Shown here in pieces: positions 2,386 through 32,958 of a stretch of DNA of 64,000 nt. Position 1 is the stretch's first letter; the number at the start of each line of letters is the position of its first letter. The position numbers were made by a program, and so were the translations under genes. This DNA is from Litorilituus sp. GTDB lineage: Bacteria; Pseudomonadota; Gammaproteobacteria; Enterobacterales; Alteromonadaceae. The stretch spans positions 62,001 to 126,000 of the forward strand of contig JASMAS010000076.1 of the NCBI GenBank assembly GCA_030754235.1, given 5' to 3'. Under the pieces are notes generated by a model. That model had not been told where the DNA came from. It made no database searches and saw only the letters and a program-made list of their open reading frames with translations.

Positions 2386-4548
2386 ATGAAACCCCTTTAT
2401 ATGGCGACTATTTTACCAATAACACTAATCGCACTTTCTGTTAACCAAGCTTTTGCTCAAGCTGAGAATAATATTAAAAATAGTTCAGAGAACATTGATG
2501 AAACGATTGTAGTAACAGCTACTCGCTATCAACAAGATGTTAATAAAATTCCTGGTGCAATAACTGTGATTACTGAAAGTGAAATTGCAAAACAAACCCG
2601 TGTAAATGATGATTTAACCTCTGTATTAGCTAATCTTGTGCCAAGTATGACACCTTCTCGTCAAAAGCTGTCAAATCAAGGTGAAAATTTACGTGGGCGT
2701 ACTGCATTGATCTTAGTTGATGGCGTACCACAAAATAATCCGTTAAGAAATGGTAATCGCTACGGCTACCCACTAGACTCTTCCACATTAGAGAGAATTG
2801 AAGTAGTTAATGGCGCCAGTGCTGTTCACGGTATGGGTGCTACAGGAGGATTAATTAATTATATAACTCTATCGGCTAAAAAAGGAGATAATTTCAAACA
2901 GAAGTTGGGCCTGCGTATTAATGACAGTTTTAATAGCGACTCTACCAGCACAAAAATGTGGTACAACCTTCGCCATTACGATGAAAAATTTGATATTGTC
3001 GGTGCTGCTTCTTGGTATGATCAAGGGTTATATTATGATGCTAAAGATAATGCGATAGGAATGAATTCTATTCAAGGCGAAACGCAAGACTCAAGTGCTA
3101 CTAATTTTTTCATCAAAACAGGGATCAACTTTGCCGACCAACGACTTGAGTTCTCTACTAACCATTATGAATTAGAAAATAAAAATCACTACGTGCCTAT
3201 TAAAGGTGATTTTAACAAGGGGATTGTGGGTACTGTTGCAAAAGGAACTAATCCTGGCGAAGCTATTTCAAATAAGGTTGAGTCATACAATTTAAAGTAT
3301 AGTCATGATGATGTCGCTAATGGTGGTTTAACTGTTCAGTTTTTTTATCAGCAATTTGATGCAATTTATGGTCAAGCATATTGGTTGCCAACGCCAAGCG
3401 TTATTAGAGATCAAGGTACAATAACTTCAACAAAAAAAGGCATGAAGCTATCTTATAACCAAATAGAACTTTTGGGGTTAGATGATAGTTGGGTATTTGG
3501 CCTTGACGTATTAAAAGACAGCACACAACAATATTTACTTGGCACAGGTTTAGCAGTCACTCCTGTTATGTCATACAGTGGTATATCTCCATTTGTACAA
3601 GGTGACATATTAATCAGTGAGGATCTTCGTCTAACAGGTGGCTTACGCCATGAAAGTACAACGGTTGATGTGAATAATGCCCAAACACTTTATAGCTTTG
3701 GTTTGTATAATGAAGAAGGTAATCCTCATGGTCGTGTTAATACCATTGGTGGAGAACAAGATTTTAGTGAATTAGTGTATAATTTAGGTGCAGTTTATCG
3801 CCTGAGTGATGAAGCAAATGTATTTATCGGTTTTAATCAAGGCTTTGGTTTACCTGACATTGGTCGCGTATTGCGCGGGAATTGGATAGGTGATAAAGGT
3901 CAAGCTGTTGATAGTAATATCAACATTGATTTCAATACCATGCCAGCAGTAAAACCAGTAGTGACAGATAATTTTGAAATAGGCGTTAATTATACTAATG
4001 ATCAATGGCAATTAGCGGCTTCTGCGTACTATTCACTAGCAAAAGATGGCGCAAACCTATCATTAAATGATGGTGGCTCTTATGATGTCGTTCGCCAACG
4101 CACTGAAATTACAGGTGCTGAAGTTAGCGCCAAATATCAATGGAATGAGCAACTATCATTAGCGGCACTGTACTCTACGGTAAATGGTGAAGTCGATAGT
4201 AATGCCAATGGTGAAGTCGATAGTGATATGGATTTAAAAAATGTATCGCCCGATAGGTTAATGCTCTCAGTAAATTATGATCTAACGGATAATTTGTCTA
4301 GCGCAATTCAGCTAAACACGTTGTTTGATACAGAAAACAAAGCTAAAAATCAAAAATTTTCAGGATATAGCCTTGTAGATGCCTCTATGGGGTTTGGTCT
4401 GCAAGAATATGGTAAATTAACCTTTGCAATAGAGAATTTACTGAATAAAAATTATGTCGGCTACTTCAGCCAGATAAGAAATCATTCATCTTATTATTTT
4501 GCCGGTAGAGGTCGTAATTATTCAATAAATTATGAGGTTAACTTTTAA
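2386..4548 (+). CDS. TonB-dependent outer-membrane receptor, probably for a siderophore
   Basis: Imports an iron chelate across the outer membrane using TonB energy. The start at 2386 is chosen because it gives a good signal peptide (MKPLYMATILPITLIALSV, cut near AFAQA), has AAGG six bases upstream, and leaves the Fur box outside the gene; an in-frame ATG at 2299 would include it. A TonB box region (DETIVVTATR) follows, then a plug domain with LVDGVPQNNP and INYITL. The rest is a 22-strand-type barrel ending in aromatic Phe (INYEVNF). The SQGF-like segment NQGFGLPDIGRVLRG is typical of siderophore receptors. The ligand is unknown. It stands alone, with no siderophore genes beside it. Confidence 0.88.
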   Translation: MKPLYMATILPITLIALSVNQAFAQAENNIKNSSENIDETIVVTATRYQQDVNKIPGAITVITESEIAKQTRVNDDLTSVLANLVPSMTPSRQKLSNQGENLRGRTALILVDGVPQNNPLRNGNRYGYPLDSSTLERIEVVNGASAVHGMGATGGLINYITLSAKKGDNFKQKLGLRINDSFNSDSTSTKMWYNLRHYDEKFDIVGAASWYDQGLYYDAKDNAIGMNSIQGETQDSSATNFFIKTGINFADQRLEFSTNHYELENKNHYVPIKGDFNKGIVGTVAKGTNPGEAISNKVESYNLKYSHDDVANGGLTVQFFYQQFDAIYGQAYWLPTPSVIRDQGTITSTKKGMKLSYNQIELLGLDDSWVFGLDVLKDSTQQYLLGTGLAVTPVMSYSGISPFVQGDILISEDLRLTGGLRHESTTVDVNNAQTLYSFGLYNEEGNPHGRVNTIGGEQDFSELVYNLGAVYRLSDEANVFIGFNQGFGLPDIGRVLRGNWIGDKGQAVDSNINIDFNTMPAVKPVVTDNFEIGVNYTNDQWQLAASAYYSLAKDGANLSLNDGGSYDVVRQRTEITGAEVSAKYQWNEQLSLAALYSTVNGEVDSNANGEVDSDMDLKNVSPDRLMLSVNYDLTDNLSSAIQLNTLFDTENKAKNQKFSGYSLVDASMGFGLQEYGKLTFAIENLLNKNYVGYFSQIRNHSSYYFAGRGRNYSINYEVNF

Positions 4549-22135: not shown

Positions 22136-23923
22136 TTAATGGCTAAATTCAAAACTGACTATCGTACCCGACACTTCTCTTTCGCCTATATGCATATCAG
22201 TATTTAATGATTTGGCACGCTCTTGCATTATACCTATTCCTAAATGACCTTGCTCATTAAGCGTTTCAGGCAGCCCTACGCCATCATCCCAAATTTTCAC
22301 TTTGACTTTATTGTCTTCAAGTACTATCGACACGCCAGCTTTGCTAGCAGCAGCATGACGATGGATATTAGATAAAGCTTCACGTACTATTTGTAACAAG
22401 TGAATTTCTTGATTCGCACTAAGGTAACTTTGAGGTAGCTGATAATCAAACGCTATACTGAATTGGCATTTAGCACTGAATTCAATAATAGTGCTTTGTA
22501 GTGAGTTTTTTATTGCCGGATCATCTAATTTTAATCTAAATGTTGTCAGCAGTTCCCTCAGTTGCAAATAAGCACTGTTTAACCCTTCCTTAATATCATC
22601 AATGGTTTCTTCAACTTGCTCTTGAGGTAATTGCTTGTGCATTTTACGCGTTAACAAACTCATTTGAACCTTTAAATAGGACAATGATTGCGCTAAAGAG
22701 TCGTGCAGTTCTCGCGCAATAACCGCACGTTCTTCTACAATGACAAGACGGTTTTCACTGGTGCGTTTTTGATCAAGCTCTATGGCTGTAGCAATAATAT
22801 CAGCCATGGCTTGCAATATTTGCTGTTGCCAATCTTGTACCTCTGTTCCTTTAGGGAGCTCCCAAACTAGGTATCCAAAAAGGCGATTTTGTTTTTCTAG
22901 AGGAAATTTTTGATAGTTAAAACAAATATTATCAATAGTATTATTGACATAAACATCAATAATTAAATTATTTTGCTTACTGTTATTGATTTCTATTTTA
23001 ATTTTACCAAAGCCTAATACTTCGACTAATTCATCAATAATTTGATGATCAATTTGATAACTGGCGCTGTCTTGCTCTGATAAAGTATAACCAGCTAAGT
23101 TTCTTGCCGCGCGATACAATACATCAAGAGATTGATTCGTCCGGCTTAATTGTTGAGTTTTATGGCTCACTCGGCTTTCAAAATCTTGGTAAGTTAGCTT
23201 TAATTCATCGGACATTTGATTAATGGTATGAGCTAAAACACCTAATTCATCATTTCTGTTATAAGTGGCTCTGACCTCAAAATTACCTTTACCTGCCTGC
23301 TCCGCTACATTGACCAACTGTTTTAAAGGGCCTATTAAAGTCCGGTTTAATTTAAATAACACAAAGCTGGCGACAGCAATAACAAGAAACAAAGTAAGCC
23401 CTTGAATTAAGCGTAAAAGACTCAACTTTTTTTCTGATTCTAGTTGTAACAATTTTACGAGTTGATCTAATTCAACAACAAAATGATCATAAGAGGCGAT
23501 TAACTCAATCAACTGCCCATGAGTTAAGTGTTTCACCGCCAAACTTCGTACGTTGATTTGTTGCCATAACGCTAAAATACGATGATATTGTTGACCCACG
23601 GCTGTATTTTTACCGTCTTCAAATTTTTTACCATGCAAAACCTGGGTAAGACTTAAATTAAATGTATGTATTTCGGCTCTAACGGCTGCTTTATTTATAT
23701 TTTGATCAATAAAATAAGCCCTGGAAATTCGTACAGCCTGCATGCGTAATGAACCAGCCTTATTAATTTTCGCAGCATCGCCATTAAGACTTTCTGTTAC
23801 CAGCATAGATGAGATCATACTTAATAAACCTAAAGTAATAATCACTGCCATCACCTGTCCTACTTTGGCAATAAGTGATGTGCTTGATTCAGATAGTTCA
23901 AGTGAGTTTGAGGCTATTTCCAT
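22136..23923 (-). CDS. narX: Nitrate/nitrite sensor histidine kinase NarX
   Basis: Membrane sensor that phosphorylates NarL when nitrate is present. The start at 23923 gives 595 aa (E. coli NarX 598); an in-frame upstream start would add an unlikely extra hydrophobic leader. The periplasmic P-box that binds nitrate is visible (INKAGSLRMQAVRISR) after the first membrane helix. A second membrane helix (LIQGLTLFLVIAVASFVLF), a HAMP region, a central linker with a GAF-like stretch, the HisKA_3 motif ARELHDSLAQSLSYLK with the phospho-histidine, and an ATP-binding end (WDDGVGLP, HLGIGIMQERA) follow. It is divergent from narK, and narL follows. Confidence 0.94.
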   Translation of the reverse strand: MEIASNSLELSESSTSLIAKVGQVMAVIITLGLLSMISSMLVTESLNGDAAKINKAGSLRMQAVRISRAYFIDQNINKAAVRAEIHTFNLSLTQVLHGKKFEDGKNTAVGQQYHRILALWQQINVRSLAVKHLTHGQLIELIASYDHFVVELDQLVKLLQLESEKKLSLLRLIQGLTLFLVIAVASFVLFKLNRTLIGPLKQLVNVAEQAGKGNFEVRATYNRNDELGVLAHTINQMSDELKLTYQDFESRVSHKTQQLSRTNQSLDVLYRAARNLAGYTLSEQDSASYQIDHQIIDELVEVLGFGKIKIEINNSKQNNLIIDVYVNNTIDNICFNYQKFPLEKQNRLFGYLVWELPKGTEVQDWQQQILQAMADIIATAIELDQKRTSENRLVIVEERAVIARELHDSLAQSLSYLKVQMSLLTRKMHKQLPQEQVEETIDDIKEGLNSAYLQLRELLTTFRLKLDDPAIKNSLQSTIIEFSAKCQFSIAFDYQLPQSYLSANQEIHLLQIVREALSNIHRHAAASKAGVSIVLEDNKVKVKIWDDGVGLPETLNEQGHLGIGIMQERAKSLNTDMHIGEREVSGTIVSFEFSH

Positions 23924-24103
23924 GGCAAGTAATTTTATAAAAAATGAAGAACAATTGAATGTTATAGCATACTGAAAATTTGCTAAAAATACCAAAAACT
24001 TTATTGCTACCACCAAATAGTTATTCTATCCACCTCCATAACTCCCAAACCACAAAAAAAACAACAAAACAAATAAAAACAAAAACTTAACCAATAAAAA
24101 CAC

Positions 24104-24267: not shown

Positions 24268-25872
24268 ATGTCTGACATTCAAAAGTGGGACGTAGAAGAC
24301 GCCCAGTTTTGGGAAAATGAAGGTAAGAAGGTTGCAAATCGTAACCTTTGGATTTCAATCCCAAGCCTTTTATGTGGTTTCGCCGTATGGTTATGCTGGG
24401 GTATCATTACGATTCAAATGCTAAACCTAGGCTTTCCAATTCCAAAGGCAGATCTTTTTACTTTAGGTGCGGTTGCGGGCTTAACGGGAGCTACTTTACG
24501 TATACCAAGTAGTTTCTTTATTCGTTTATGTGGTGGTAGAAATACCATAGTATTTACGACTGCTTTATTAATGATACCTGCTATTGGAACAGGTATTGCT
24601 TTGCAAGACCTTAATACACCACTTTGGGTATTCATGTTCTTAGCGCTGCTATCTGGTATTGGTGGTGGTAACTTCGCTTCTTCCATGTCAAATATCTCTT
24701 TTTTCTTTCCAAAAAAACAGCAAGGTTTGGCTTTAGGTCTAAATGCTGGTTTAGGTAACTTTGGTGTTACCACGATGCAAATATTAGTTCCTCTGGTGAT
24801 GACTTTTGGTTTGTTTGGCGGTGAGCCAATGGAACTAGTGAACACTTCAGGTACTTTGATTGGTAAAATTCCTGCTGGCACAGATGCTTGGATTCATAAC
24901 GCGGGTTATGTTTGGTTATTCTTTTTAATTCCTTTAGCGCTAGTGGGCTGGTGGGGAATGAATAACATTAAAGCATCACATGTTACTCCTGGTTTACCAA
25001 GTCCTGTTGGCTCATTCTCTATCATCACAGGCATGTTCTTAATTGGTTTTGGTACTGCTATTTTCGGTCTTTGGTTAATGCTTCCTGAAAAAGTCGGTGG
25101 TAGTGGTTTTGGAGTTAGTAAATGGATTGTTTTACCCATAGTTATCGCGTTAACAGTTTATTTATTGAAGCTAATTCCTGGTCAAGTTAAAGATAACTTG
25201 TCTCGTCAATACAAAATATTCGGCAATAGACATACATGGGTGATGAGTGTTATTTACACCATGACGTTTGGTTCTTTCATCGGTTTTGCCGCTGCATTTG
25301 GTCTATCAATCAAAGTTATCTTTGGTTATCAGCATGTTATGGTTGACGGTGTCATGAATCATGACCTTGCTAACCCGAATGGTCCAAGTGCATTGATGTA
25401 TGCATGGATGGGACCTTTCATCGGTGCGTTAATTCGCCCAGTAGGTGGTTGGATTGCCGATAAAATGGGTGGTGCTAAAGTCACTGAAATCTGTGCAATT
25501 ATCATGGTAGCAAGTGCTATCGGTGTTGCTCACTACATGAAACTAGCCTATTCTTCAGCAACCCCTCAAGATTATTTTGTACCGTTTTTAGTCTTATTCT
25601 TAGTATTGTTTGCTGCTACTGGTATTGGTAATGGCTCAACTTTTAGAACCATTTCAATGGTATTTGATAAAGAGCAAGCCGGTCCGGTACTAGGCTGGAC
25701 TTCTGCAGTTGCTGCATACGGCGCATTTATTATTCCTAAAGTACTTGGTGAGCAAATTAAATTGACCACCCCTGAAAATGCTCTTTACGGATTTGCCATA
25801 TTCTATGCGGTTTGTATCGTTATCAATCGCTGGTATTACTTGCGCAAAAGTGCGGAGTTTCATAACCCTTAA
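24268..25872 (+). CDS. narK: Nitrate/nitrite antiporter NarK (respiratory)
   Basis: 534-aa NNP-family major-facilitator protein that brings nitrate to the inner face of the Nar enzyme and exports nitrite. The long hydrophilic N-terminus (SDIQKWDVEDAQFWENEGKK) and periplasmic loops are typical of NarK2-type proteins beside narGHJI. Nitrate signatures are ALGLNAGLGNFGVT in the first half and GIGNGSTFRTISMVF in the second; arginines in LRIPSSFF and LIRPVGGW probably bind substrate. TTGGAGT precedes the ATG. The promoter has a NarL 7-2-7 site and a perfect FNR box. narG starts 194 bases later behind its own FNR-like box. Confidence 0.95.
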   Translation: MSDIQKWDVEDAQFWENEGKKVANRNLWISIPSLLCGFAVWLCWGIITIQMLNLGFPIPKADLFTLGAVAGLTGATLRIPSSFFIRLCGGRNTIVFTTALLMIPAIGTGIALQDLNTPLWVFMFLALLSGIGGGNFASSMSNISFFFPKKQQGLALGLNAGLGNFGVTTMQILVPLVMTFGLFGGEPMELVNTSGTLIGKIPAGTDAWIHNAGYVWLFFLIPLALVGWWGMNNIKASHVTPGLPSPVGSFSIITGMFLIGFGTAIFGLWLMLPEKVGGSGFGVSKWIVLPIVIALTVYLLKLIPGQVKDNLSRQYKIFGNRHTWVMSVIYTMTFGSFIGFAAAFGLSIKVIFGYQHVMVDGVMNHDLANPNGPSALMYAWMGPFIGALIRPVGGWIADKMGGAKVTEICAIIMVASAIGVAHYMKLAYSSATPQDYFVPFLVLFLVLFAATGIGNGSTFRTISMVFDKEQAGPVLGWTSAVAAYGAFIIPKVLGEQIKLTTPENALYGFAIFYAVCIVINRWYYLRKSAEFHNP

Positions 25873-26066: not shown

Positions 26067-29000
26067 ATGAGTAACTTTCTTGATCGCCTACAGTTTCTTA
26101 AAAAGAAAACTGGCGAATTCAGCGATGGTCATGGTGATACCACCAATGAAAGTCGTGAATGGGAAAACAGCTATCGTCAACGCTGGCAACACGACAAAAT
26201 CGTACGCTCTACCCACGGGGTAAACTGTACAGGTTCTTGTTCTTGGAAAATTTACGTAAAAAATGGTTTAGTGACTTGGGAAACACAGCAAACGGATTAC
26301 CCACGTACTCGTCCAGACTTACCAAATCACGAGCCACGCGGCTGTCCTCGCGGTGCTAGTTACTCATGGTATTTATACAGTGCAAACCGATTAAAATATC
26401 CTAAAGTACGTAAGCCACTATTAAAATTATGGCGTGCAGCTCGCGCTACCATGGATCCTGTTGATGCTTGGGGCTCTATTGTTTCTGATGAAGCAAAAAC
26501 AAAAACCTATAAATCTAAACGTGGTTTAGGTGGTTTTGTTCGCTCTTCATGGGACGAAGTTAACGAAATCATTGCCGCAGCAAACGTTTACACAACCAAA
26601 ACTTTCGGTCCTGACCGTGTTATTGGTTTCTCGCCTATTCCTGCAATGTCAATGGTATCATATGCGGCAGGTGCACGTTACTTGTCACTTATTGGTGGTG
26701 TATGCTTAAGTTTCTACGATTGGTATTGTGATTTACCTCCAGCTTCTCCAATGGTTTGGGGTGAGCAAACCGATGTTCCTGAATCTGCTGACTGGTATAA
26801 CTCAAACTACATCATTGCTTGGGGTTCTAATATTCCTCAAACACGTACCCCTGATGCACATTTCTTTACTGAAGTTCGTTATAAGGGTGCTAAAACGGTA
26901 TCAATCACTCCAGATTACGCCGAAGTTTCAAAGCTTACTGATGAATGGTTAAACCCTAAACAAGGTACTGATGCAGCATTAGGTATGGCATTTGGTCATG
27001 TTATTCTTAAAGAATTCCATTTAGAAAAACCAAGTGAATACTTCACCAGTTATGTTCGTCAATATACCGATTTCCCGATGTTAGTGGTATTAGAGAAGCA
27101 TAATGAAGAATCTTTCACTTCAACACGCTTCTTACGTGCAAGTGATTTGGCGGGTGATTTAGGTCAAGAAAATAACCCTGAATGGAAAACCATTGCTTTT
27201 GATGAAAACTCAAGTGAATTAGTGTCTCCACAAGGTTCTATCGGTTACCGCTGGGGTGAAAAAGGTAAGTGGAATATTGAAGAGCGTGAAGGTAAAGCTG
27301 GCGCAGATACTAAACTTCAATTATCGCAAATTGGTGGCGATGTATCACCGGTTGCTTTCCCTCACTTTGCGGCAAACAACACTAACAGTGCTTGGACAGG
27401 TTGTGATCAAGAAGAGATTCAAGTTCGTAACGTGCCAACTAAAACAATCATTGGCGCAGACGGTAAAGAATATCTAGTTGCCACTGTTTACGACTTAATG
27501 ATGGCTAACTATGGTATTGACCGTGGTTTAGGTGGTGGTAATGTTGCCTCTAGCTACGACCAAGACATTCCTGGTACACCAGCATGGCAAGAAAAAATCA
27601 CTGGCTTACCACGTGAAAAAGTAATCAAAGTTGCCCGTGAATTTGCGGATACTGCTGACAAAACTCATGGTAAATCGATGATCATCGTTGGTGCGGCAAT
27701 GAACCATTGGTACCACATGGACATGAACTATCGTGGCCTGATCAATATGGTGATGATGTGTGGTTGTGTTGGTCAATCAGGTGGTGGTTGGTCACACTAT
27801 GTTGGTCAAGAAAAATTACGTCCACAAACAGGTTGGCAGCCACTCGCATTTGGTTTGGATTGGTCTCGTCCACCTCGTCAAATGAACGGTACTTCATTCT
27901 TCTACAACCATTCTTCACAATGGCGTCATGAAAAAGTCAGTATGCATGAAGTCTTATCGCCATTAGCGAAAAAAGACGATTTTGATGAGCATCAACTAGA
28001 TTACAACATTCGTGCTGAGCGCATGGGTTGGTTGCCTTCTGCTCCACAAGTTAACATGAATCCGCTTCAGTTAACTAAAGATGCAAAAGCCGCAGGTATG
28101 GAAGCAAAAGATTATGCGGTACAACAGCTTAAATCAGGTGACATCAAATTTGCTTGTGAAGCACCAGATGCACCCGAAAACTTCCCTCGCAACATGTTCA
28201 TCTGGCGTTCAAATTTACTTGGTTCATCAGGTAAGGGGCATGAATACATGCTTAAGTACCTTTTAGGTGCTGAAAGAGAAAGTGTATTGCACGGTGATAA
28301 TGGCGCTATTGGCGGCATAAAACCAAAAGAAGCTGAATGGGTTGACCAAGGCGCTACTGGTAAATTAGACCTTGTCACGACTCTAGATTTCCGTATGTCT
28401 TCTACGTGTATGTACTCAGACATTATCTTACCTACGGCTTGTTGGTATGAAAAAGATGATTTAAACACTTCTGATATGCATCCATTTATTCACCCATTAT
28501 CAACCGCTGTTGATCCTGCGTGGGAAGCAAAATCAGATTGGGAAATCTACAAAGGTATTGCTAAAAAATTCTCAGAAGTTTGTGTTGGTCACTTAGGTGA
28601 AGAAACTGACTTTGTGACTATTCCAATGTTACATGACACTGAAGGTGAATTAGCTCAACCTTTTGATGTTAAAGACTGGAAAAAAGGTGAATGTGATTTA
28701 ATCCCCGGTGAAACAGCGCCAAATATGGTCGTAGTTGAACGTGATTACCCGAACACTTACAAGAAGTTTACCTCATTAGGTCCACTACTTGATAAGTTGG
28801 GTAATGGTGGTAAAGGTATTAACTGGAATACTGATGACGAAATTATGTTGTTAGGTGAGTTAAACCACAAAAATACTGACGAAGGTATTAGTGAAGGTCG
28901 TCCAATTATAGAATCAGCAATTGATGCTGCTGAGACTATCTTAACTTTCGCTCCTGAAACTAATGGTGGTGTTGCGGTAAAAGCATGGGCTGCACTAAGT

Positions 29001-29849
29001 GAGTTTACAGGTCGTGACCATACGCATTTAGCATTACCAAAACAAGAAGAGAAAATCCGTTTCCGTGACATTCAAGCACAACCACGTAAGATTATTTCTT
29101 CTCCAACTTGGTCAGGTTTAGAAGATGAACATGTAAGTTATACCGCTGGTTATACAAACGTTCATGAGCTTGTACCATGGAGAACAATAACCGGTCGTCA
29201 GCAGTTTTATCAAGATCACAAGTGGATGCAAGCCTTTGGTGAGCAATTGATGTCTTATCGACCACCTATTGATACGAAAACAATTGATATCGTTAAAAAC
29301 TCGAAGCAAAACGGTAACAAAGAAATCACCTTGAACTGGATCACTCCACATCAAAAATGGGGCATTCATTCAACTTACTCTGATAACCTCATTATGCTTA
29401 CCCTATCTCGTGGTGGACCAATTATTTGGATGAGTGAAGTTGATGCTAAAGACGCGGGTATTGAAGACAACGATTGGGTTGAAGTATTTAACGCCAACGG
29501 TGCTATTGCCTGTCGTGTAGTTGTTTCACAACGTGTTATGCAAGGTATGACCATGATGTATCACGCTCAAGAGCGTATCGTAAATGTTCCTGGCAGTGAA
29601 ATGACAGGTACTCGTGGTGGTCACCATAACTCGGTTACTCGTGTTGTGATGAAGCCAACACACATGATTGGTGGTTATGCACAACAATCATGGGGCTTTA
29701 ACTACTACGGTACTGTAGGTTGTAACCGTGATGAAATGGTTGTTGTTCGTAAGATGGATAAGATTGACTGGTTAGATGATGACGGCTATGAAGCTGGCAA
29801 CACTGAAAAATTACCCCGTCCTTTACCAACTAACCCAGATGAAGCTTAA
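26067..29849 (+). CDS. narG: Respiratory nitrate reductase, alpha subunit
   Basis: Molybdenum (bis-MGD) catalytic subunit that reduces nitrate to nitrite at the inner face of the membrane. The length of 1260 aa is close to that of E. coli (1247). The FS0 iron-sulphur ligands His50, Cys54, Cys58 and Cys93 (THGVNCTGSCSW, RGCPRG) and the molybdenum ligand Asp222 (WYCDLPP) fall at exactly the E. coli positions. CGGAG lies before the start. It is first of narGHJI. Just after the stop lies a duplicated narG-end/narH-start segment, described separately. Confidence 0.98.
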   Translation: MSNFLDRLQFLKKKTGEFSDGHGDTTNESREWENSYRQRWQHDKIVRSTHGVNCTGSCSWKIYVKNGLVTWETQQTDYPRTRPDLPNHEPRGCPRGASYSWYLYSANRLKYPKVRKPLLKLWRAARATMDPVDAWGSIVSDEAKTKTYKSKRGLGGFVRSSWDEVNEIIAAANVYTTKTFGPDRVIGFSPIPAMSMVSYAAGARYLSLIGGVCLSFYDWYCDLPPASPMVWGEQTDVPESADWYNSNYIIAWGSNIPQTRTPDAHFFTEVRYKGAKTVSITPDYAEVSKLTDEWLNPKQGTDAALGMAFGHVILKEFHLEKPSEYFTSYVRQYTDFPMLVVLEKHNEESFTSTRFLRASDLAGDLGQENNPEWKTIAFDENSSELVSPQGSIGYRWGEKGKWNIEEREGKAGADTKLQLSQIGGDVSPVAFPHFAANNTNSAWTGCDQEEIQVRNVPTKTIIGADGKEYLVATVYDLMMANYGIDRGLGGGNVASSYDQDIPGTPAWQEKITGLPREKVIKVAREFADTADKTHGKSMIIVGAAMNHWYHMDMNYRGLINMVMMCGCVGQSGGGWSHYVGQEKLRPQTGWQPLAFGLDWSRPPRQMNGTSFFYNHSSQWRHEKVSMHEVLSPLAKKDDFDEHQLDYNIRAERMGWLPSAPQVNMNPLQLTKDAKAAGMEAKDYAVQQLKSGDIKFACEAPDAPENFPRNMFIWRSNLLGSSGKGHEYMLKYLLGAERESVLHGDNGAIGGIKPKEAEWVDQGATGKLDLVTTLDFRMSSTCMYSDIILPTACWYEKDDLNTSDMHPFIHPLSTAVDPAWEAKSDWEIYKGIAKKFSEVCVGHLGEETDFVTIPMLHDTEGELAQPFDVKDWKKGECDLIPGETAPNMVVVERDYPNTYKKFTSLGPLLDKLGNGGKGINWNTDDEIMLLGELNHKNTDEGISEGRPIIESAIDAAETILTFAPETNGGVAVKAWAALSEFTGRDHTHLALPKQEEKIRFRDIQAQPRKIISSPTWSGLEDEHVSYTAGYTNVHELVPWRTITGRQQFYQDHKWMQAFGEQLMSYRPPIDTKTIDIVKNSKQNGNKEITLNWITPHQKWGIHSTYSDNLIMLTLSRGGPIIWMSEVDAKDAGIEDNDWVEVFNANGAIACRVVVSQRVMQGMTMMYHAQERIVNVPGSEMTGTRGGHHNSVTRVVMKPTHMIGGYAQQSWGFNYYGTVGCNRDEMVVVRKMDKIDWLDDDGYEAGNTEKLPRPLPTNPDEA

Positions 29850-29869
29850 GGCTAGTGAGGATTAACAAC

Positions 29870-29965
29870 ATGAAAATACGTTCTCAAATAGGTATGGATG
29901 TTGTGGAAACTACGTTACCACGCCCTGCAATACCTTTTATCCACACTAACCCTGATAAAGCTTAA
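29870..29965 (+). pseudogene. 31-codon chimaeric ORF: narH start fused to narG-like end
   Basis: Starts with ATG behind a GAGG and encodes MKIRSQIGM, identical to the first nine residues of narH (the first 28 bases are identical to those at 29976). It then reads DVVETTLPRP...TNPDKA and stops, which resembles the narG ending EKLPRPLPTNPDEA. After its stop comes TAAGGAG and the true narH start. The simplest reading is a scar left when a tandem narGH duplication collapsed. It is translated in principle; a function is not expected. Confidence 0.75.
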
Positions 29966-29975
29966 GGAGTAGAAC

Positions 29976-31520
29976 ATGAAAATACGTTCTCAAATAGGTA
30001 TGGTTCTTAACCTTGATAAGTGTATCGGGTGTCATACTTGTTCAATCACGTGTAAAAACGTATGGACGTCTCGTGAAGGCGTTGAATATGCTTGGTTCAA
30101 CAATGTTGAAACTAAGCCTGGTATTGGTTACCCGAAAGAATGGGAAAATCAAGACAAATGGAATGGTGGTTGGATCCGTAAAGGTGACGGCACTATCGAA
30201 CCAAAAATTGGTGGTAAATATCGTCTATTAGCGAGCATTTTTGCTAACCCCAACATGCCTGAAATAGATGATTATTATGAACCGTTTGATTACGATTACC
30301 AGCATTTACATACTTCCCCAGAAGTAAAGCATCAGCCAACGGCTCGTCCGCGCTCTGTTATTTCTGGTAAGCGTATGGAAAAAATCGAATGGGGTCCAAA
30401 CTGGGAAGAAATTCTTGGTACTGAGTTTGAAAAACGCTCTAAAGACAAAAACTTCGATAACATGCAAAAACAAATGTACGGTGAATTTGAAAATACATTC
30501 ATGATGTATTTACCGCGTTTATGTGAACATTGTTTAAACCCTGCTTGTGTAGCTTCTTGTCCATCTGGCGCAATTTACAAGCGTGAAGAAGACGGTATCG
30601 TTCTGATTGACCAAGAAAAGTGTCGTGGTTGGAGAATGTGTATCTCTGGTTGTCCGTACAAGAAAATATACTACAACTGGAAATCAGGTAAATCAGAAAA
30701 ATGTATTTTCTGTTATCCACGTATTGAAGCAGGCATGCCAACGGTTTGTTCTGAAACGTGTGTTGGTCGTATCCGTTACTTGGGCGTTATTCTTTATGAT
30801 GCAGATAAGATCAAAGAAGTGGCCTCAACACCATCAGAAACCGATCTATACGAAAAGCAACTTGAAGTCTTTCTAGATCCAAATGATCCTGCAATCATTG
30901 CTCAAGCACGTAAAGATGGCATTACTGATTCAATCATTGAAGCAGCACAAAAGTCTCCTGTTTACAAACTGGCCATTGATTGGAAACTCGCATTACCATT
31001 GCACCCTGAGTACCGTACCCTTCCTATGGTTTGGTATGTACCTTCACTTAGCCCGATTAATAGTGCGGTTGAGTCAGGTAACTTGGCAACTATCGGTAAA
31101 GCTGGCGTAATCCCTGATATACGCAGTTTACGTATTCCAATGAAATATTTAGCCAACTTGCTAACGGCTGGTGACGAAGAGCCTGTAGCTCGTGCGTTAG
31201 AACGTTTACTTGCTATGCGTGCCTATAAACGTGCTGAAAATGTCGAAGGTATTGAAGATCTACAAGTACTTGAAGATGCTGGCTTAACGAAAAAGCAAGC
31301 CGACCAAATGTACCGTTATTTAGCCATTGCTAACTACGAAGATCGTTATGTTATTCCTTCGGGTCATCGTGAAATGAATGTACCAGAAGCCTATGGCGAA
31401 AAATCTGGTTGTGGTTTCACTTTCGGCAACGGCTGTAGCGATGGTCAAAATGGCGTAAATATGTTTGGTGGCAAAAAAGTTGCTAAACGTGACGTTATCA
31501 AAACCGTTAATATAGGTTAA
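29976..31520 (+). CDS. narH: Respiratory nitrate reductase, beta subunit
   Basis: Carries electrons from NarI to NarG through four iron-sulphur clusters. The length of 514 aa compares with 512 in E. coli. Cluster ligands in order: Cys16, Cys19, Cys22 and Cys26 (KCIGCHTCSITC), then CEHCLNPACVASCP, CRGWRMCISGCP (the Trp marks the [3Fe-4S] cluster) and KCIFCYPR with VCSETC. The start has AAGGAG seven bases upstream; the same first 28 bases occur 106 bases earlier in the chimaeric ORF. narJ follows after ten bases. Confidence 0.98.
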   Translation: MKIRSQIGMVLNLDKCIGCHTCSITCKNVWTSREGVEYAWFNNVETKPGIGYPKEWENQDKWNGGWIRKGDGTIEPKIGGKYRLLASIFANPNMPEIDDYYEPFDYDYQHLHTSPEVKHQPTARPRSVISGKRMEKIEWGPNWEEILGTEFEKRSKDKNFDNMQKQMYGEFENTFMMYLPRLCEHCLNPACVASCPSGAIYKREEDGIVLIDQEKCRGWRMCISGCPYKKIYYNWKSGKSEKCIFCYPRIEAGMPTVCSETCVGRIRYLGVILYDADKIKEVASTPSETDLYEKQLEVFLDPNDPAIIAQARKDGITDSIIEAAQKSPVYKLAIDWKLALPLHPEYRTLPMVWYVPSLSPINSAVESGNLATIGKAGVIPDIRSLRIPMKYLANLLTAGDEEPVARALERLLAMRAYKRAENVEGIEDLQVLEDAGLTKKQADQMYRYLAIANYEDRYVIPSGHREMNVPEAYGEKSGCGFTFGNGCSDGQNGVNMFGGKKVAKRDVIKTVNIG

Positions 31521-31530
31521 GAGGTTAGTT

Positions 31531-32268
31531 ATGTTAATTCTTAAAGTTATTTCACGTCTACTTGATTACCCAACAGCAGCGCTTTTTGCTGCGAAGGATG
31601 AATTAAAAGCAATCGTTGAAAATACCGACGAATTGACTGCTCAAAACCGTAGTCAGCTGCTTGATTTTATTGAGCAACTGACTTCTAGAGACATTTTTGA
31701 TGCACAGGAAAGCTACGATCTATTATTTGATCGTGGCCGAGCATTATCACTATTGTTGTTTGAACATGTTCACGGTGAATCTCGTGATCGTGGTCAAGCC
31801 ATGGTTGATTTAATGAATGTTTATAAAACCAACGGTTTTGAAGTTGATTCATCGCAACTGCCTGACTACATCCCTCTGTATTTGGAGTTTTTAAGTGAGC
31901 AATCACCTGAGTTTATTGAAGAATGGCTTGGCGATATTTGTCACTTATTAACCATGTTGTCAGAACGTTTAATAGACAGAGAATGTTATTACTCAGTGCT
32001 TTTTGATTCATTGGTAGAAGTTTCTGGTCAAGAAGTTGACCGTAAAGAAATTGCTGACTCAGTGAAGCAAGAAGAGCGAGACGATACCGTCGAAGCTATT
32101 GATAAAGAATGGGAAGATAAAGAAATACGTTTTGATGACCCTATGGTAGGCGACTGTCCATCATCATCAGGATTACAAAACTCCCAAAATTCGTTAGATC
32201 CAAATACTGTTCATCAAGTGCCTATTAAATGGCACGATGCTGATGCAGCAGAAGTGTCAGGACTGTAA
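31531..32268 (+). CDS. narJ: Nitrate reductase assembly chaperone
   Basis: Cytoplasmic TorD/NarJ-family chaperone that binds NarG and helps cofactor insertion and membrane attachment; not part of the final enzyme. Family features are the N-terminal LKVISRLLDYPTAALF, the central HVHGESRDRGQAMVDL and the DYIPLYLEFLS motif. The length of 245 aa is slightly more than in E. coli (236), mostly in an acidic C-terminal tail. AGAGG lies before the start. It lies between narH and narI with gaps of about ten bases each side. Confidence 0.96.
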   Translation: MLILKVISRLLDYPTAALFAAKDELKAIVENTDELTAQNRSQLLDFIEQLTSRDIFDAQESYDLLFDRGRALSLLLFEHVHGESRDRGQAMVDLMNVYKTNGFEVDSSQLPDYIPLYLEFLSEQSPEFIEEWLGDICHLLTMLSERLIDRECYYSVLFDSLVEVSGQEVDRKEIADSVKQEERDDTVEAIDKEWEDKEIRFDDPMVGDCPSSSGLQNSQNSLDPNTVHQVPIKWHDADAAEVSGL

Positions 32269-32280
32269 GGAAGAATACTT

Positions 32281-32958
32281 ATGTCAAATTTAAATTTTTT
32301 ACTTTTTGGGATTTATCCCTACATAGCTATTGCTGTGCTATTCATCGGTTCTTGGATCAGATATGACCGCGAACCCTATTCATGGAAAGCAGACTCTAGC
32401 CAACTTTTAGATCAAAAAGGGTTCCGTTTAGCAAGTAACTTGTTCCACGTAGGTATTATTTTTGTACTTTGTGGTCACTTTGTCGGTTTATTAACACCGC
32501 ATGCTATTTACCACGCTTTCATTTCAACAGCTAACAAACAATTATTAGCAATGGTTAGTGGTGGTTTCTTTGGGGTGTTATGTTTAATCGGTTTAGTTAT
32601 GTTATTAAAACGTCGTTTAACCAACCCACGTGTTCGTGCAGTTTCTAAAACATCAGATATCTTTATCTTAGTACTATTACTTGTACAATTATTACTAGGG
32701 TTAGCGACTATCTTCGCTTCAATGAGTCACTTAGACGGCTCAGTGATGGTATTGTTAGGTGACTGGGCACAAAGCATTGTTACTTTACAAGGTGTTGCTG
32801 CAGCTGAAGCGATGGAAACGGTTGGTATTATCTACAAGTTACACGTTTTAGTTGGTTTAACTATGTTATTAGTATTCCCATTTACACGTTTAGTGCATGT
32901 AATTAGCGTGCCTGTTAAATATTTTGCACGTAACTACCAACTAGTTCGTCAAAGATAA
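32281..32958 (+). CDS. narI: Respiratory nitrate reductase, gamma subunit (cytochrome b)
   Basis: Membrane diheme cytochrome b that oxidises quinol and anchors NarGH. The length of 225 aa equals that of E. coli NarI. Five membrane helices are visible; likely heme-binding histidines sit in LFHVGIIFVLCGHFVGLL (helix II) and YKLHVLVGLTMLLVFPFTRLVHV (helix V). AAGGAAG lies before the start. A terminator follows 40 bases after the stop, ending the narGHJI unit. Confidence 0.97.
   Translation: MSNLNFLLFGIYPYIAIAVLFIGSWIRYDREPYSWKADSSQLLDQKGFRLASNLFHVGIIFVLCGHFVGLLTPHAIYHAFISTANKQLLAMVSGGFFGVLCLIGLVMLLKRRLTNPRVRAVSKTSDIFILVLLLVQLLLGLATIFASMSHLDGSVMVLLGDWAQSIVTLQGVAAAEAMETVGIIYKLHVLVGLTMLLVFPFTRLVHVISVPVKYFARNYQLVRQR

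Follow-up and report, generated by a model that had tools for sequence, protein, structure and literature searches.

The locus poses a simple question: where does the extra DNA between narG and narH come from, and does it do anything there? The window (the whole stretch of DNA that was analysed, 64 kb) contains a narGHJI operon, the setting of the insert, in which the gap between narG and narH measures 126 bases, against 10 to 20 in the ten close relatives that we aligned. The original prediction had seen here a chimaera of narH and a diverged narG end, and had proposed an ancestral tandem narGH-narGH, or a second nar operon, as its origin.

An enlarged junction in an intact operon

The operon and the two genes upstream of narG are as follows.

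22136-24016, minus strand: histidine kinase with a PilJ-type sensor domain
24268-25872: MFS transporter
26067-29849, plus strand: narG, intact, native ending LPRPLPTNPDEA and stop; Pfam Molybdopterin and Nitr_red_alph_N; groups with genomes G036 and G031
29976-31520, plus strand: narH, intact; Pfam Fer4_11 and Nitr_red_bet_C
31531-32268: narJ
32281-32958: narI

Both narG and narH keep their native stop, ribosome site and start. The 126-base gap is made up of a 20-base spacer, a 31-codon ORF and a 10-base spacer, so that the junction reads narG end, spacer 1, narH start, narG end, spacer 2, narH. Its parts overlap in places:

29829-29851, plus strand: narG-end repeat, copy 1 (native)
29850-29869, plus strand: spacer 1, long type, GGCTAGTGAGGATTAACAAC, resembling the narG-narH spacer of genome G007
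29867-29897, plus strand: narH-start repeat, copy 1
29870-29965, plus strand: chimaeric ORF of 31 codons plus stop, opening as narH and running in frame into a narG-like end
29945-29967, plus strand: narG-end repeat, copy 2, ending TNPDKA and stop, 2 mismatches of 23
29966-29975, plus strand: spacer 2, short type, GGAGTAGAAC, identical to the spacer of G036 and G031
29973-30003, plus strand: narH-start repeat, copy 2, which contains the true narH start (29976)

The narH start had been described as 28 bases occurring twice, 106 bases apart, and we find it as a 31-base exact repeat (AACATGAAAATACGTTCTCAAATAGGTATGG) at that distance, without a mismatch, 28 of the 31 bases being those of the narH start. 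The narG-end repeat is identical at 21 of 23 bases, with copies 116 apart. Neither is matched by chance: the 31-base repeat gave no match in 100 dinucleotide shuffles of the 64 kb window, and the narG-end repeat none in 100 shuffles. The flanking sequence is thus directly repeated beyond chance, as in a recombination scar, and the new join between narH start and narG tail sits near 29894-29900. A listing of direct repeats over the whole window (exact seeds of 13, distance at most 1000) returned two families, that of the junction (36 nt, 94%) and a 21-nt pair at 4183/4207. The latter, at 4183-4227, consists of AATGGTGAAGTCGATAGTAAT in two 21-base copies, 24 apart, with one difference.

Native flanks and a private insert

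In both the narG tree and the narH tree the window groups with G036 and G031, two close relatives in the genus, with support of 0.998 and 0.997 and weak support inside the group. Over a 75-base step from 29775, the narG end of the window is 97% and 95% identical to those of G036 and G031, and 77-85% to those of the other eight relatives. The trees and this identity, together with the match of spacer 2, indicate that the native parts are narG including its end, spacer 2 and narH. An ancestry switch at the junction was rejected, both sides next to it being closest to G036 and G031. As read from the sequence, the extra piece is the stretch between the two narG-end repeats. Removing 116 bases gives exactly the arrangement of G036 and G031, which makes the insert private to our own genome among those read. 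Three things can be seen directly: the repeats, the native state of the flanks, and the lack of the insert in the relatives read.

In order to place the junction among its relatives, we read the spacers of the genus and of the family. NarH was matched at E 0.001 or better in 15 of the 39 genus genomes. Close NarH (at least 93% identity per matched stretch) is present in seven, our own genome counted; G009 has a distant form (55%), and seven further genomes gave weak matches only. In each of the six other genus genomes with a close NarH, 10 or 19 bases separate narG from narH. The 10-base spacers are GGAGTAGAAC in G036 and G031, GGAGTAACCT in G032 and G026, and GGAGTAACCG in G027, and the 19-base spacer, in G007, is GGCTGAGAGGATTAACAAC. 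All four genomes of a neighbouring genus (g9) have narH, with a long spacer form in G128, GGAGTAGAATT in G094 and G155, and GGAGTAGACC in G046. The close relatives lack the insert and show the simple junction, again as in a recombination scar.

For the family we used 395 genomes drawn from a larger family; G007 and G027 are absent among the narH matches of this draw, and their junctions were covered separately. NarH is matched at E <= 1e-100 in 93 of the 395 genomes, with a single match each, and 30 of the 93 contributed loci. The narH-start peptide is found in 150 of 182 loci, those in which it fits the search pattern, and is doubled in five, all of them entries of our own genome. The junction was read in 118 of 130 loci, including two entries of our own genome, three of G007 and two of G009; entries marked OVERLAP carry no spacer value, and L058, L090, L101, L118, L124, L102 and L104 appear there without a NarG-like ending. 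A second reading covered 15 loci, one of them our own genome.

Several other nar loci drew attention in these readings. The narH of G007 (L009, L018 and L023; G007:C1:1117576-1119118) is matched in three successive pieces, as by frameshifts, beside a normal junction, and perhaps reflects sequencing errors in a 2 Mb contig. In L164 (G439) the narG-narH gap is 149 bases long and contains the inverted stretches GTATCGAAGG and CCTTCGATAC, which we take to resemble a REP-type element. The gap of L088 (Moraxella) was measured by script at 334 bases. A partial narH match at G388:C37:98264-99304 has one in-frame TAA and is perhaps a decaying gene.

Composition of the insert

The ORF at 29870-29965 translates to MKIRSQIGMDVVETTLPRPAIPFIHTNPDKA, followed by a stop. 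It begins with the first nine narH codons and finishes with a NarG-like end, TNPDKA; this tail and the repeats support the chimaera with a diverged narG end that had been proposed. In alignments of the tail (AIPFIHTNPDKA) with narG, clear likeness is limited to LPRP, TNPD.A and the stop; neither AIPFIH nor the 18 bases that precede LPRP have a clear counterpart there. The ORF belongs to no Pfam family. When its protein was searched against the 395 family genomes, 41 gave some match at E up to 10, our own genome alone was significant (1.0e-16), and the next best reached 0.109.

Spacer 1 aligns with the spacer of G007 at a score of 15, with that of G128 at 7, and with the short spacer at 0.5. 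No random 20-mer of the window reached 15 among 20000 (maximum 8.0, and 9.0 in a second draw), nor did any of 56 stretches before long ORFs. The score of 7 against G128 was also reached by 4 of 20000 random 20-mers; the long spacer form of G128 itself scores 11 against that of G007.

Scores of the ORF tail against narG are closely bunched among the relatives. The highest are those of G094 (53), G046 (51.5), G036 (51), and G032 and G128 (both 49); our own narG scores 47.5, as do G026 and G031, and the lowest are G155 (46), G007 (44.5, nearly the lowest of 11) and G027 (44). Among a first 500 shuffled tails the mean was 26.8 and the maximum 47.5, which equals the score of our own narG; among a second 500 the maximum was 42.5 and none reached 47.5. 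Since the best match to the spacer, G007, has a near-lowest score for the tail, the insert may have several sources, or its donor may belong to a lineage outside the genomes examined.

The narH part of the insert is not what one would expect of a diverged donor. Both narH starts have ATA as third codon, where nine of the ten relatives aligned have ATT and only G046 has ATA. Because the two starts are identical, ATA included, this part of the insert is, to judge from its codons, copied from the genome's own narH or homogenised later.

Search for a donor and for a second narGH

The original prediction staked itself on relatives having a narG that ends in TNPDKA, and NarG does so in two of them, G094 (L025) and G730 (L156). 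A narG with this ending thus exists in relatives, but the full tail was found in none of them by protein and DNA search of the 395 family genomes or in the 182 loci. A search of the same genomes with the insert DNA, which scored at most two candidates per genome listed, gave matches at E up to 1 in 301, mostly short chance matches. Outside our own genome, matches at E below 0.001 involve only the two ends of the insert and never its middle (29898-29939). The seven genomes of genus g129 gave one insert match, on the narG-end side.

Our own genome shows no second narGH. One further stretch matches NarH, with 36% identity along some 100 residues; it belongs to another protein and was rejected as a second copy. 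No genome in the genus list has two full narGH copies. Elsewhere in our own genome the middle of the insert finds only chance matches of 14 to 19 bases.

Mobile sources were also considered and rejected. A 38-base piece of the insert had no exact match in viral_contigs, and for phage we obtained three short chance matches at E 0.2 to 8. Plasmids gave four chance matches at E 8, on Vibrio plasmids and annotated RtxA, and in the narGH of a Shewanella plasmid the spacer is an ordinary one of 15 bases. A small mobile element was set aside as well: the stretch 29500-30300 is free of inverted repeats of length 12 and above, and the insert is single copy.

Translation of the ORF and of narH

The ORF had been said to keep a ribosome site, and GAGG indeed stands nine bases before its ATG. 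Ribosomes probably start on it, its start following a G007-type spacer of the kind that leads into narH. They would stop 10 bases before narH, as they would after narG in G036 and G031. The ORF may therefore be translated. The narH ribosome site, TAAGGAG, overlaps the ORF stop, and since this layout of stop and TAAGGAG is that of narG in G036 and G031, narH translation should continue much as before and narH expression should be little changed by the insert. The effect on narH coupling suggested by the original prediction finds no support here, the order of stop, Shine-Dalgarno sequence and start before narH being the one found behind narG in those genomes.

If the ORF were a functional leader, or encoded a small protein, with a tuning effect on narH, this would explain the ribosome site, the frame kept open to a stop, and the stop-SD-start layout before narH. 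We regard such a role as highly improbable: the ORF has no significant relative in the 395 family genomes, a random join would be in frame one time in three, and the predicted fold of the region is no more stable than that of shuffled sequence (z 0.32). Searches for RNA families and for promoter or terminator patterns came up empty, and the predicted openness of the narH start, 0.41, lies inside the range of 0.05-0.48 in 10 relatives. With neither a conserved peptide nor a stable RNA fold, a leader ORF or cis-acting RNA finds no support. No selection is needed to account for the ORF, and the insert resembles a harmless remnant of DNA exchange more than a functional element.

Origin of the insert

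We think it probable, with modest confidence, that the site is the scar of a recombination in which the native junction met a diverged one, leaving a private insert of about 116 bases. Illegitimate or unequal recombination would have joined the native short-spacer junction with the diverged long-spacer junction of a relative. The product would carry the native narG end, the long spacer, nine narH codons, the diverged narG end, the native short spacer and the native narH, and the chimaeric ORF would be a by-product. We infer the donor, the mechanism and the neutrality of the insert.

The same final order would result if a diverged second operon had integrated as a tandem narGH-narGH and a deletion had then fused the first narH at its codon 9 to the final 22 codons of the second copy of narG, and TNPDKA endings do occur in two relatives. 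We nevertheless consider this unlikely. Each of the 93 family genomes has one NarH match, neither the genus genomes nor our own show two full copies, and the ATA common to both narH starts argues against a long-diverged second copy as the source of the narH part; this history would also take a large gain followed by a large loss, where a short insert suffices. Two narGH copies of the needed kind were found neither in relatives nor in our own genome, though an ancestor could still have had them. Of the earlier proposal, the chimaera of narH start and diverged narG end is supported, while the tandem is neither shown nor required, the order being explained by an insert of about 116 bases and the flanks being native. 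A plain local duplication of the narG-narH junction, followed by drift of the freed narG end and spacer, fits the unit length (narG end, spacer, narH start) and the identical narH starts with their shared ATA. It seems to us quite unlikely: spacer 1 would have had to reach its score of 15 against G007 by chance, the narH start would have stayed unchanged while the tail changed greatly, and between the aligned codons for LPRP and TNPDEA/TNPDKA three differences are synonymous and only one is not, unlike free drift.

An artefact of assembly or library could be suspected, the assembly being in 112 contigs and the insert private. By reasoning, however, joining two strains at the 31-base repeat cannot make the join of narH start and narG tail, which one parent would need to have already; the contamination figure is 0.27, and the chance matches of the insert middle suggest no source for a chimaeric read. 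We judge an artefact very unlikely.

Mosaic genes arise by exchange between relatives, and the junction is similar in combining two types of spacer with two endings of narG; the difference is that sequence was here added, not swapped, with both versions left in tandem. A literature search found no work that treats narG and narH together with an intergenic tandem duplication, and returned general papers on rearrangement. In bacteria, duplications at short homologies are described in the portions consulted of two papers (PMC11111574, PMC3411829). As far as those portions go, junction duplications by illegitimate recombination (PMC11111574, PMC3411829) share with our case a private novel join beside intact genes, with flanks duplicated, and differ from it in that sequence of a diverged allele is here apparently included and the unit is only ~116 bases.

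The locus might also be a two-way intermediate of spacer exchange, resolvable to either spacer type, which we put forward as a long shot. The long and the short spacer stand there in tandem, with a direct repeat to either side: loss of sequence between the two narH starts would give the G007 form with its long spacer, and loss between the two narG ends would give the short form of G036 and G031. This reading rests on two genomes; if true, the patchy long spacer in two genera (G007 and G128) could reflect passage through such states.

The locus offers a small, legible case of how exchange between relatives can leave both intergenic versions adjacent and make a short ORF with the operon unbroken. 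If doubly repeated states of this kind prove frequent, they would account for the patchy distribution of spacer types in conserved operons; if not, this is an ordinary scar.
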